Shown here one piece after another: positions 20,657 to 33,588 of a DNA stretch of 37,482 nt (positions are counted from its first letter, which is position 1; each line of letters begins with the position of its first letter). The stretch covers positions 1 through 37,482 of the forward strand of contig DVHP01000013.1 of the NCBI GenBank assembly GCA_018711945.1, written 5' to 3'. This DNA comes from Candidatus Ventrenecus avicola. Lineage in GTDB: Bacteria > Bacillota_I > Bacilli_A > RF39 > UBA660. Position numbers and translations under genes: made by a program. The notes under the pieces were generated by a model, which saw only the letters and a program-made list of their open reading frames with translations, had not been told where the DNA came from and made no database searches.

Positions 20657-20971
20657 TTAATCACTCGTACAACTACCAACATCCCAGATACAATTGAAAC
20701 ATCCCCAGAACTCACTTTCATTCCAAGCATCAACCCAACTGAAAATCAGGCTAATAAGTGCTGGTAAAAAGAAAATACATACACCCGCAATACAACGAAA
20801 GACTAAAGACTTCACTGCTTTCATTAAAGTATCTTCCTTACTACCAACAATTGCTTTAAACAAATCGATCATTCCAAAGCCAATAATGATAATTGGAATA
20901 AAGATTTTAGCAATTCGGACAATATGACCGATAAAAATAAAAGTACTACTAAGTCCAGAACAATAATCCAT
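20657..20971 (-). CDS. Two-TM VirB2/T4SS pilin-like protein
   Basis: IFIPIIIIGFGMIDLFKAIVGSKEDTLMKAVKSLVFRCIAGVCIFFLPALISLIFS + CFNCIWDVGSC tail; paralogue of five other ORFs here. Confidence 0.7.
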   Translation of the reverse strand: MDYCSGLSSTFIFIGHIVRIAKIFIPIIIIGFGMIDLFKAIVGSKEDTLMKAVKSLVFRCIAGVCIFFLPALISLIFSWVDAWNESEFWGCFNCIWDVGSCTSD

Positions 20972-21798
20972 TACTCACAACTCCTAACATTTAAAATACA
21001 CTTCTGACAAGCATCAAATTCCCCTTTTAAATTAGCCCAAGAAGAAATAAGGGAAAAAACCAAACTAACCAATGTAGGGATAAAGAAAATAATAACACCA
21101 GCTACAACACGGAACGCAAAAGACTTCGCTGCTTTTCTAATTTCATCATCTTTGGAACTCGTAATTGCTTTAAAGAAATCAACCATTCCTAAAGCAATAA
21201 TAATAAGTGGAATTAAAATCTTTACGACAAGCACAATATTACCGATAAATTGTAGGGGTTCTTTAAGTCTTCCACAAGTTTCAGAATCACTAACGGATGT
21301 GCTACCTCCAGTACTTGGAGTTGTACCAGAAACATCATTATCATCGCTACTACTTCCACTACCAGGAGCTTGACTTTGTTTATATAGATAAACTTCTCCA
21401 TTAGAAAGTGTAATAGACACACCAGCATTGATAATTGCTCCACGACTAGACAATTGATCAAAAGTATATCTTTCACAATCTCCTACAGCATTACAAAGAA
21501 CATAACGGCCAGAAGAATCATTATAATAAAACATTCTTGTTTGACCATTCAAAGAATTATTATAAAAGTCCTGTTCAACAGAATTAAAGGTATAAATGAC
21601 ATTATCATAAGCAATTTGCTGTGTCGTAAAGTTAAAAGTAACTCCACTTTGTCCTGGACGAACCTCAATACAGTTTCCACGACTTTCACATAACATATAA
21701 TTTCCACTAGAATTTTCATAATAAAATCCATCAGCATATGCAACAGGTAAAAATACCAAAAAAGCAACCGCCATAATGAGTAAATACTTCCATTTCAT
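20971..21798 (-). CDS. Secreted/exported T4SS pilin-like protein with duplicated Cys-containing ectodomain
   Basis: Signal peptide; repeats FYYENSSGNYMLCESRGNC / FYYNDSSGRYVLCNAVGDC; ILIPLIIIALGMVDFFKAITSSKDDEIRKAAKSFAFRVVAGVIIFFIPTLVSLVFS; CQKCILNVRSC. Confidence 0.7.
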   Translation of the reverse strand: MKWKYLLIMAVAFLVFLPVAYADGFYYENSSGNYMLCESRGNCIEVRPGQSGVTFNFTTQQIAYDNVIYTFNSVEQDFYNNSLNGQTRMFYYNDSSGRYVLCNAVGDCERYTFDQLSSRGAIINAGVSITLSNGEVYLYKQSQAPGSGSSSDDNDVSGTTPSTGGSTSVSDSETCGRLKEPLQFIGNIVLVVKILIPLIIIALGMVDFFKAITSSKDDEIRKAAKSFAFRVVAGVIIFFIPTLVSLVFSLISSWANLKGEFDACQKCILNVRSCE

Positions 21799-21800
21799 AT

Positions 21801-22292
21801 TTAATCCATCCCTTCAATTTTACAAGAATCACTACTACAAGAATTCACGTCACACTCTCCGTTTAACAAACATTCTGTACAACAACACCAGTTATTCGAA
21901 TAATCGCTCCACTCATTAACCATATTTAAAACAAGTTGAACAATTCCAGGAAGAAGGAAAATCGCAACTCCTGCAATTACTCGAATCATCAAAGACTTAA
22001 ATGCTTTCGTAAGACCATCATCTTTACTTGAAGTAATCGCTTTATAAAAATCCATAATTCCAAATCCTATAATCACTATCGGTATTATGATTTTTACAAA
22101 ATTTAAAAGTGTGCCTAAAAAGAGCATCGGCTTGCGATAGGAAGGATCAGCACAAATACTATCCACGGTAACTTCATCCCCTGCCAAAACTCGAATAGAT
22201 AAAGAAGAATCATATATTTCTGCTGCACTCACCTGACGAAATAATCCAAAAGATAAGAAAAGTGCAAAAGCTATAACAAACAATTTTTTCAT
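21801..22292 (-). CDS. T4SS pilin-like protein with Cys-rich tail
   Basis: MKKLFVIAFALFLSFGLFRQVSAA signal peptide; IIIPIVIIGFGIMDFYKAITSSKDDGLTKAFKSLMIRVIAGVAIFLLP; CCCTECLLNGECDVNSCSSDSC. Confidence 0.7.
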   Translation of the reverse strand: MKKLFVIAFALFLSFGLFRQVSAAEIYDSSLSIRVLAGDEVTVDSICADPSYRKPMLFLGTLLNFVKIIIPIVIIGFGIMDFYKAITSSKDDGLTKAFKSLMIRVIAGVAIFLLPGIVQLVLNMVNEWSDYSNNWCCCTECLLNGECDVNSCSSDSCKIEGMD

Positions 22293-22315
22293 CGTATCAC
22301 CAAACTTACATGTCA

Positions 22316-22344
22316 ATTATATCAATAAACAAGCAAAAAAACTA
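22316..22344 (-). promoter_or_regulatory. Putative promoter of 21801..22292 (leader copy A)
   Basis: Minus strand TAGTTT - 17 bp - TATAAT; same spacing as copy B at 33145-33173; weak -35. Confidence 0.45.
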
Positions 22345-22366
22345 GTGCATTTTACACTAGTCACAA
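22338..22366 (-). terminator. Rho-independent terminator (copy A) downstream of dnaI
   Basis: actagtg cattttа-type loop cactagt with U7 on the minus strand (plus: aaaaaaactagtgcattttacactagt). Confidence 0.65.
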
Positions 22367-22381
22367 AAAACCACTTAGAAA

Positions 22382-31483: not shown

Positions 31484-31533
31484 AATTCATCACTCTTACC
31501 TATCTAAAACACTTTTTAAAAATCACTAATAGC

Positions 31534-31562
31534 ATTATACAATATTTTTTTAAATACCTCAA
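31534..31562 (-). promoter_or_regulatory. Putative promoter upstream of 30980..31483/virB6/virB4
   Basis: Minus strand TTGAGG - 17 bp - TATAAT. Confidence 0.6.
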
Positions 31563-33118
31563 TCATTCTGTCCTGAAGTATCACACCCATCAATATCAAA
31601 CAAACAATTCCAACAATTATCAAAACTATTAGACTGTCCACCACCTATAATATTTTGAGCTGAATCATAAATAAAATTAATAATGCCAGGAAGCAAGAAA
31701 ATACCTACACCTATAACAACGCGAAGTGCAATGGCTTTAGCATACTTTTTCATATCCTCTTCTTTTCCTGAGGTAGTAATCATAAATAAATTCTTAATAC
31801 CAACAATAATAATAACAGCCGGAACTAAAACTTTGACAATGATAATAATGATCCCTACAGAACGCAATGTACTGGAAACATTAGAATTGCCACAAACGCC
31901 ACTTAAAGAAATATTACAATTATCACCATAGCAAACCTGTCCGGGATTATCAGTACCCTCAGGATTTGCTTCGCCTTCTTCTCCTTGCGTATATGAAGTA
32001 CCTTGCTGAGCCTCTTCTTCGTCCGTAGTTAAAACATATACACCTGCACCTATGCCGGCATCTTCATATACATAAAAGTTATTTCCAATACAAGAGTCTC
32101 CATAAAAATCATCAATACTTTGAGGTGATAGTGCAAAAGACATACCTCTTCCAGAGCTAGTATTTACAGTAACACTAACATCGGCATTACCAGTAAATCG
32201 ATAACTACAAGCTCTAGAATCCATTTCACTAGTCAAAACGCAGAATTCTCTTTGTCCATCCGGGTATGTCAACCAATAAAATGTCGCACCTTGAACTGCT
32301 GGCATAGCATTATTATTATAGTGACTAGCACATTCAATAGGATCTTCCTCTTGTTCAGGAGCGGTCTCTCCATATTCTTCCTCTTCAAGTTGAGAATTAA
32401 AAGTCGTTATTCCATCTCCGTAACCATTAACAGAAACTTGAAGCACATTGCCATCCCATACAAGATAAGGACAACGATTTCCGCTTTGTTCAAAAGCAGC
32501 CAAAACAGATCGTCTGGTTACATTAGATGATACGGTAGCAGCATTATTCGTATTTAACCCATAAATAGCAACATTATTTAATAATTGATTAAAATGTGTG
32601 TCCACAAAATCGCCATAACTATCATAATATAAATTTGTGTTATTCTCATCCTGTATTTCCAGCTGAAATCTCATATATGAAGATGTCGTATATGGAACTC
32701 TATAAGTACACCTTGCAAAAAAAGAATTGGAAGAATAAGATGTATCTTGATTTAAATAAGAATATGATGTCCGATTTCCAATATAACTTGTTAAATCATT
32801 TTCATTTGAACCAGCATATACATTATATCCCCAAAAACCATCTGTAACTAATACCATATTGGGACAACTAGATGTATTCAAACTACTCCAATTTTGAACA
32901 TCTTCCTTATTTCCTTTATTACCATTACCATTATGTTCCTTTCCATCAAATTTCTTAACAAAAGCTTTAACAGAATTGTCAGTGTAAATTTCTAAATAAA
33001 CAGTATCTCCTTCAGCTCCTCCATATTTACACTCAGTTGCTATATCTTTAGCTTGAACATATTCTAATCCTCCAAAAAACATAAATAAAAAACAAATACT
33101 ACCAACAATTTTTTTCAA
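31559..33118 (-). CDS. T4SS pilin-like protein with large Cys-containing ectodomain (TTG start)
   Basis: Signal peptide; about 400 aa ectodomain; VLVPAVIIIVGIKNLFMITTSGKEEDMKKYAKAIALRVVIGVGIFLLPGIINFIYD; CWNCLFDIDGC tail; GGTGAT RBS. Confidence 0.7.
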   Translation of the reverse strand: MKKIVGSICFLFMFFGGLEYVQAKDIATECKYGGAEGDTVYLEIYTDNSVKAFVKKFDGKEHNGNGNKGNKEDVQNWSSLNTSSCPNMVLVTDGFWGYNVYAGSNENDLTSYIGNRTSYSYLNQDTSYSSNSFFARCTYRVPYTTSSYMRFQLEIQDENNTNLYYDSYGDFVDTHFNQLLNNVAIYGLNTNNAATVSSNVTRRSVLAAFEQSGNRCPYLVWDGNVLQVSVNGYGDGITTFNSQLEEEEYGETAPEQEEDPIECASHYNNNAMPAVQGATFYWLTYPDGQREFCVLTSEMDSRACSYRFTGNADVSVTVNTSSGRGMSFALSPQSIDDFYGDSCIGNNFYVYEDAGIGAGVYVLTTDEEEAQQGTSYTQGEEGEANPEGTDNPGQVCYGDNCNISLSGVCGNSNVSSTLRSVGIIIIIVKVLVPAVIIIVGIKNLFMITTSGKEEDMKKYAKAIALRVVIGVGIFLLPGIINFIYDSAQNIIGGGQSNSFDNCWNCLFDIDGCDTSGQND

Positions 33119-33144
33119 TTTTTATCACCAAACTTTACTCCTTA

Positions 33145-33173
33145 AGTATATCAATAAAACCAAAAAAAAACTA
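33145..33173 (-). promoter_or_regulatory. Putative promoter of 31559..33118 (leader copy B)
   Basis: Minus strand TAGTTT - 17 bp - TATACT; matches copy A. Confidence 0.45.
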
Positions 33174-33192
33174 GTGCAATTTACACACTAGC
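33163..33192 (-). terminator. Rho-independent terminator (copy B) downstream of 33202..33588
   Basis: plus: aaaaaaaactagtgcaatttacacactag; stem with U tract on the minus strand. Confidence 0.65.
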
Positions 33193-33201
33193 CTATTTTA
33201 A

Positions 33202-33588
33202 TTAATTGCCCCATGCTTCTTCAGCATACATTCCACAGCCACCATCGTCGTTTGGACTTGTAATACATTGTCTACAAATAGCATAGTCATCAGCAGCTCC
33301 AGAACTAGAGAAATTAGAAATTAATCCCAACACTAATCCAACAATCGTTGGCAAGAAAAATATTACAACACCAGCAATCGCACGCATTGCAAGTGATTTT
33401 GTTGCCTTCTTAATTTCATCATCTTTCGAAGCAATAACAGCTTTTCCTAAATCAAGCATACCAAAAACAATTAACAAAATTGGAATAACGATTTTAAAAA
33501 CTAATAAAACATATCCAACAACCTGCCAAATATTTGCAGTTGTTGCACAAAATCCCATAGTCTCTGTTCCGACAATTGTTTCTCCCAT
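33202..33588 (-). CDS. T4SS pilin-like protein (no large ectodomain)
   Basis: IVIPILLIVFGMLDLGKAVIASKDDEIKKATKSLAMRAIAGVVIFFLPTIVGLVLG; CRQCITSPNDDGGC tail. Confidence 0.7.
   Translation of the reverse strand: MGETIVGTETMGFCATTANIWQVVGYVLLVFKIVIPILLIVFGMLDLGKAVIASKDDEIKKATKSLAMRAIAGVVIFFLPTIVGLVLGLISNFSSSGAADDYAICRQCITSPNDDGGCGMYAEEAWGN

Follow-up and report, generated by a model that had tools for sequence, protein, structure and literature searches.

What kind of machine do six related, pilin-like membrane proteins serve in a bacterium of the class Bacilli? The question is raised by a 37,482-nt stretch of Candidatus Ventrenecus avicola DNA (contig DVHP01000013.1, assembly GCA_018711945.1; hereafter the window), which is a whole contig of a metagenome-assembled genome (MAG) of 1.35 Mb that is 77% complete. 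In GTDB the organism belongs to order RF39, family UBA660, and "the family" below means UBA660. An original prediction, made from the letters alone, saw in six open reading frames (ORFs) one family of subunits resembling VirB2-type pilins. We confirmed all six on the minus strand and call them PilF (33202-33588), PilE (31559-33118), PilD (30980-31483), PilC (21801-22316), PilB (20971-21798) and PilA (20657-20971), using "module" or "hairpin" for their shared two-helix C-terminal unit. Our answer, to which we give a probability of roughly 0.6, is that they are paralogous VirB2-like subunits of a chromosomal, relaxase-poor, non-conjugative monoderm type IV secretion system (T4SS), of the kind seen in MPF-FATA systems and mycoplasma integrative and conjugative elements (ICEs), and that their variable ectodomains work on the wall or on a contact surface.

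By sequence comparison the six C-terminal modules are homologous, far beyond chance. In the genome a PilF query matched only its five paralogues, at E 4e-25 to 1e-9, and leave-one-out profiles, built from any five members, gave the sixth 51-123 bits, whereas window-shuffled copies (300 per member) reached maxima of 17-30 bits. This supports the proposed common two-transmembrane (TM) module and, with it, the idea of a single family comprising a small core subunit (PilF) and variants with ectodomains. Some of the motifs first described need adjusting: "KDD" stands as a consensus, its actual letters varying (KED, KDD, KEE, NDD), and the CxxC tail is indeed present in five of the six, PilD being the exception, but is not always the C-terminal end, since PilC has four further cysteines after it and PilF runs on past its last one (...CGMYAEEAWGN). 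What had been missed is a cysteine directly N-terminal of helix 1 in all six, PilD included.

The paralogues fall into groups of unequal reach. PilF (128 aa, without a signal peptide) has orthologues across the family, with C14 and P36 invariant in their alignment. In a tree of the modules both PilF and PilD have relatives throughout the family, while those of PilE, PilC, PilA and PilB occur mainly in the window's wider group. PilE consists of a signal peptide, a cysteine-containing ectodomain of about 400 aa and the C-terminal hairpin; PilD adjoins VirB6 and has a short acidic ectodomain; PilC has a short ectodomain, PilB a beta-rich one of about 150 aa, and PilA is a small pilin of 104 aa. 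Each group has one cysteine before helix 1, together with three in the tail (PilF, PilE, PilB and PilA), seven (PilC) or one (PilD), a pattern kept in many dispersed relatives as well. These totals (1+3, 1+7, 1+1) are even in 216 of 250 related modules, and ectodomain totals in 128 of 158, counts that cannot be read as a probability given the kinship among the sequences. Because they are even, the N-terminal and tail cysteines are probably disulfide-bonded on the outer face, in line with the extracytoplasmic disulfides originally suggested.

An AlphaFold2 model of PilF has helices at 18-53 and 56-90 (mean pLDDT 80.7), in agreement with the proposed VirB2-like hairpin, within the limits of what a model of two helices can tell. 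The ectodomain pilins have signal peptides, judged by eye, and an orthologue of PilE (locus L040, 374-2833) carries, after its cysteine tail, a Big_2 domain (above cut-off) and then a YkuD L,D-transpeptidase domain (HxG...SGGCVR; 17.1 bits, below cut-off). Big_2 and YkuD domains work outside the membrane, which places the tail outside; with the K/R-rich loop inside, both ends are therefore predicted to be out, and the topology first proposed is borne out by signal peptides, natural C-terminal fusions and loop charges together. In silico, then, the proteins combine a hairpin, a positively charged cytoplasmic loop and two external ends, and can be described as putative VirB2-like hairpin subunits from which, we infer, a pilus could form.

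The T4SS context also holds. PilF, PilE and PilD lie on one side, and PilC, PilB and PilA on the other, of genes for VirB6, PrgI/VirB3 and a VirB4 split in two, all on the minus strand. The VirB6/TrbL-like polytopic protein (28867-30966), which has a long hydrophilic C-terminus, is recognised by position and by matches below cut-off (PF04610, E 6e-4; NF045889, E 1e-4). Its N-terminal hairpin (about residues 45-115) was matched by the pilin profile in the last iteration, which picked up VirB6 N-termini and was set aside for an earlier one; the match suggests either profile drift or an old kinship between VirB6 and the pilin hairpin. The mycoplasma VirB4 model NF045975 covers the next three products end to end: the PrgI/VirB3-like protein (28544-28852; PF12666 18.8 bits, below cut-off) matches its residues 2-96, the N-terminal part of VirB4 (VirB4N, 27988-28557) residues 93-276 (E 1e-15), and the C-terminal ATPase part (VirB4C, 26204-27988) residues 294-891 (342 bits). 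VirB4C also passes the PF19044 cut-off and matches the VirB4 structure 4ag5 (E 3e-57). With a VirD4 on another contig of the same genome (C76), above the NF045973 cut-off, the set VirB4, VirB6, VirB3/PrgI and VirD4 of an MPF-FATA-like T4SS is present, VirB4 and VirD4 strongly, VirB6 and PrgI with sub-threshold scores in the right gene order; for VirB8 there was no profile match. The two VirB4 genes overlap by 1 nt (junction GGATAATGAAT). A chance frameshift as the cause of the split was ruled out, since 79 related loci have the same split, 74 of them with an overlap of -1 or -4; in relatives, too, VirB4C is an open frame of about 600 aa.

Across about 100 loci the operon core is the same: a small pilin, at least one and sometimes several pilins with ectodomains, VirB6, PrgI, VirB4N and VirB4C. 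In 57 of 59 loci virB6 is immediately preceded by a hairpin gene. The MAGs are not complete, and many operons are truncated at contig ends. Many relatives add VirD4, a lipoprotein or membrane protein, and a VirB1-like protein with M23 and lysozyme domains, the last present at 23 of the 47 loci whose flanks are long enough. Collagen-like proteins with GPTGPTG repeats were seen near the operon in L090 (14146-15036) and at 18 other loci. Tad-type genes were also observed: in many relatives (among them L100, L110, L114 and L198) those for a TadA/VirB11-like ATPase, TadB, TadC and TadE-like and TadZ-like proteins form one operon with the pilin genes of the T4SS, and of 44 loci that extend far enough, 15-16 have Tad genes directly upstream of the operon. 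In the window's own genome a TadA-TadB-TadC-TadE-CpaB block lies on contig C103 (L199, 5681-12130), near RmuC and a rhodanese-like gene, and its TadA-like ATPase scores best with the VirB11 model, below that model's cut-off; Gram-positive T4SSs are said, in a recent review, to be without VirB11 (PMC12857230).

The operon is chromosomal and nearly universal in its family. VirB4C was found in 169 of 196 family genomes (134 of 150 genera), VirD4 in 136 of 147, and hairpin genes in 135 of 147, at 1-16 copies each; in a class-wide sample 17 of 18 family genomes, and none of 131 others, had the hairpin, whose presence tracks that of VirB4 (p 1e-6) and of VirD4 (p 2e-8). Distances for VirB4C agree with those for FtsK (Mantel r 0.79, 0 of 2000 permutations) and their trees have 14 of 27 splits in common, with six pairs of well-supported splits in conflict, for which reasons we regard inheritance as mainly, perhaps not only, vertical. 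PilF had no match on plasmids, and VirB4C matched plasmid proteins only below 60% identity, at best 28% among the matches listed.

These data bear directly on another explanation, which we consider rather unlikely: that the locus belongs to an integrative element, or to what remains of one, as its conjugation module, and that the pilins serve DNA transfer with a relaxase encoded elsewhere or lost. The VirD4 does pass the cut-off of the conjugative CD1115 family, the VirB4 resembles that of mycoplasma ICEs, and a PF03432 relaxase occurs in 21 of 147 genomes. However, relaxases of PF02486 and PF03389 are rarer still (1 and 0 of 99), so that all three families are absent from most genomes, the window's own included; where relaxases are present, they are mostly on contigs other than that of the operon's VirB4. 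Moreover, VirB4 is spread over the genera in a mostly tree-congruent manner, and the operon is embedded among dnaB, dnaI, ireB and ruvX.

What the ectodomains may do is indicated by the relatives, in which the hairpin is fused to amidase, M15/VanY, NlpC/P60, CHAP, C39, lysozyme-like, L,D-transpeptidase and SGNH domains. Two arrangements occur. PilD-type proteins, whose genes adjoin VirB6, often have the enzyme N-terminal to the hairpin: among 73 long ones Amidase_3 was found in 12, C39_2 in 9, NlpC/P60 in 8, a VgrG3-like lysozyme in 4 and M15 in 3, counts that overlap since some proteins carry two domains. Most of those checked have intact catalytic motifs. A genome of the same genus as the window's (G073) has three such fusions in a row before VirB6, amidase-like (a call resting on a profile that we built, not on Pfam), lysozyme-like and C39-like. 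In genes dispersed over the genome the hairpin is N-terminal and is followed by VanY, S11, CHAP, C39, NlpC/P60, SGNH or Big_2-YkuD, of which the SGNH and some YkuD calls are weak or were made by eye; one of these proteins (L190, 1535-2479) passes the cut-offs of both the T4SS_pilin family PF18895 (29.2 bits) and NlpC/P60. About half of the dispersed fusions inspected have an LppM-like lipoprotein gene (as in L176, L178, L179 and L186) or one for a single-TM protein next downstream; the operon lipoprotein between VirB1 and VirD4 (L062, 14100-14801) also matches LppM, weakly. A limited literature search returned nothing on point for RF39 with a T4SS or for pilin-hydrolase fusions, and as far as it shows the hairpin-hydrolase fusion is undescribed.

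It could be argued from the many dispersed hairpin-enzyme genes without an adjoining T4SS gene, and from the fact that small anchors require no assembly, that the hairpin serves wall enzymes and adhesins as an all-purpose membrane anchor, its place beside VirB6 being incidental. We think this quite improbable, because PilF and PilA are small and carry nothing that would need an anchor, because a hairpin gene so regularly precedes virB6 and co-varies with VirD4 and VirB4, and because the L190 protein scores as a T4SS pilin. That the machine takes up DNA, ComB/Ced-like and together with ComEC, is in our view very unlikely, even though ComEC is present in 38 of 41 genomes (the window's own included), the T4SS is without a relaxase and the lineage is reported to lack nucleotide synthesis genes (PMC13155120), given that most genomes have two or three T2SSE-type ATPases, some not linked to Tad or T4SS genes, so that ordinary type IV pili could serve uptake, that genome G036 has ComEC and a T2SSE ATPase yet no VirB4, VirD4 or hairpin genes, and that VirD4, which uptake would not need, is kept.

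Several results weigh against the six being subunits of a non-conjugative T4SS with wall-directed ectodomains. PF18895 gives the window members 16.2-25.8 bits, PilF scoring highest and PilA not matching, so that, with the cut-off at 26.6, we do not file them under that family. A Foldseek search of the PDB with the PilF model gave no match at E<=0.001 and no pilin, which has little weight for a two-helix hairpin; the PilB model had no significant match, and when the PDB was searched with a hairpin profile, the matches were FliQ and, for the most part, GPCRs (E at least 0.0035), which we take as noise. The window's own ectodomains contain no recognisable enzyme, PilE and PilB matching nothing, and in the window's PilD an enzyme domain is lost or was never present; the earlier reading of the ectodomains as adhesins or pilus tips is likewise unsupported, many being wall enzymes in relatives. 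Hairpins occur without a detected VirB4 in 13 genomes, some perhaps through MAG gaps, and to this are added the conflicting VirB4 and FtsK splits mentioned above. The lack of relaxases in the window's own genome, at 77% completeness, concerns PF03432, PF02486 and PF03389, MOBF, MOBV, MOBC and others not having been searched. No T4SS effector was identified. Finally, while the even cysteine counts fit the disulfides, the search for a thiol oxidase found no DsbA-like PF13462 protein in 41 genomes (VKOR and DsbB were not searched).

If the six are nonetheless T4SS subunits, each would be inserted as a hairpin with its K/R loop in the cytoplasm and its outer ends stabilised by bonds between the N-terminal and tail cysteines. 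PilF, and PilA, would form a core assembly on VirB6, while VirB4, and possibly a VirB11/TadA-like ATPase encoded elsewhere, would handle hairpins in the membrane or drive assembly. The larger paralogues would join as minor subunits and present their ectodomains outside, where they might breach the wall or touch a surface. In relatives the ectodomains are often peptidoglycan-active enzymes, a role that may carry over to the window paralogues, so the hairpin can be thought of as an interchangeable plug by which the T4SS would be equipped with domains for opening the wall or contacting a surface. The substrate would come by way of VirD4; since VirD4 is retained and relaxases are not, that substrate is more likely to be protein than DNA for conjugation.

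The surrounding genes, in minus-strand order, are pyk, PilF, PilE, PilD, VirB6, PrgI/VirB3, VirB4N, VirB4C, a Fic-domain gene, dnaB, an unknown gene, dnaI, PilC, PilB, PilA, ireB, ruvX and mltG, where pyk, dnaI, ireB, ruvX and mltG are names that we assigned from the sequence. PilC, PilB and PilA thus stand between dnaI and ireB, and in G073 PilE, PilC, PilB and PilA follow PilF beside pyk in a single cluster (L196, L109). The Fic gene (25398-26060) may be accessory or decaying, since its counterpart in L027 has 100 aa only. Downstream of greA, 15049-15402 encodes a type IV prepilin-like protein (start KGYTIKEM) without a Pfam match.

How a T4SS gets past a thick wall may have a concrete answer in the hairpin-hydrolase fusions, and each fused enzyme can be assayed apart from its uncultured host. 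The fusions also hint that the machine could be turned on neighbouring cells. A tentative extension, which we hold with considerable doubt, is that the hairpin is a universal T4SS docking module showing changeable wall enzymes on the tip of a pilus or channel, against neighbours, and that the lipoprotein or membrane protein genes next to the fusions confer immunity. With regard to a polymorphic toxin-immunity system, variable enzyme domains are seen in relatives but not in the window, and the following genes are candidate immunity genes only. Were the extension right, evolved VgrG spikes would have a type IV analogue in a widespread lineage of gut commensals.

Evolved VgrG spikes of type VI secretion systems and the X-T4SS of Xanthomonas (cf. 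PMC6536674) are known examples of contact-dependent machines that bear or deliver peptidoglycan hydrolases. One of the enzyme domains described above is even VgrG3-like; here, however, the putative carrier is a two-helix membrane subunit. The mycoplasma ICE module (Mbov_0395/0396/0397; NF045849, NF045889, NF045975) is the best or near-best NCBIfam match for the pilins, VirB6 and VirB4, but always below cut-off (VirB4C 342 of 590 bits with NF045975, best pilin 21.5 of 40 bits with NF045849); in that module a single model of 894 positions takes in PrgI and the two VirB4 parts, which here are three genes, and here there is also a set of paralogous pilins, while a relaxase was not detected. MPF-FATA systems (pCF10, pIP501) share membrane-anchored extracellular peptidoglycan hydrolases beside VirB4 and VirB6, to which the separate VirB1-like protein of many relatives corresponds, but are described, in a 2025 review, as without a VirB2 pilin (PMC12857230), while here hydrolases ride on the pilin hairpin. 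The same review states that VirB2 pilins are absent from Gram-positive T4SSs with Patescibacteria as the sole exception, a statement on which VirB2-like subunits in Bacilli bear. The closest known system is indeed the T4SS of Patescibacteria, with arrays of VirB2-like pilins and, in Ca. S. epibionticum, an essential role (PMC12102498; PMC12857230). As portrayed in these papers, it is likewise chromosomal, in monoderms with reduced genomes and type IV pili too, mostly without a relaxase, and comprises VirB3, VirB4, VirB6, VirD4 and divergent pilin arrays (2-11) found partly with PF18895. In the present Bacilli, unlike in those descriptions, VirB4 is split in two, and the hairpins carry wall enzymes and occur at scattered places in the genome.

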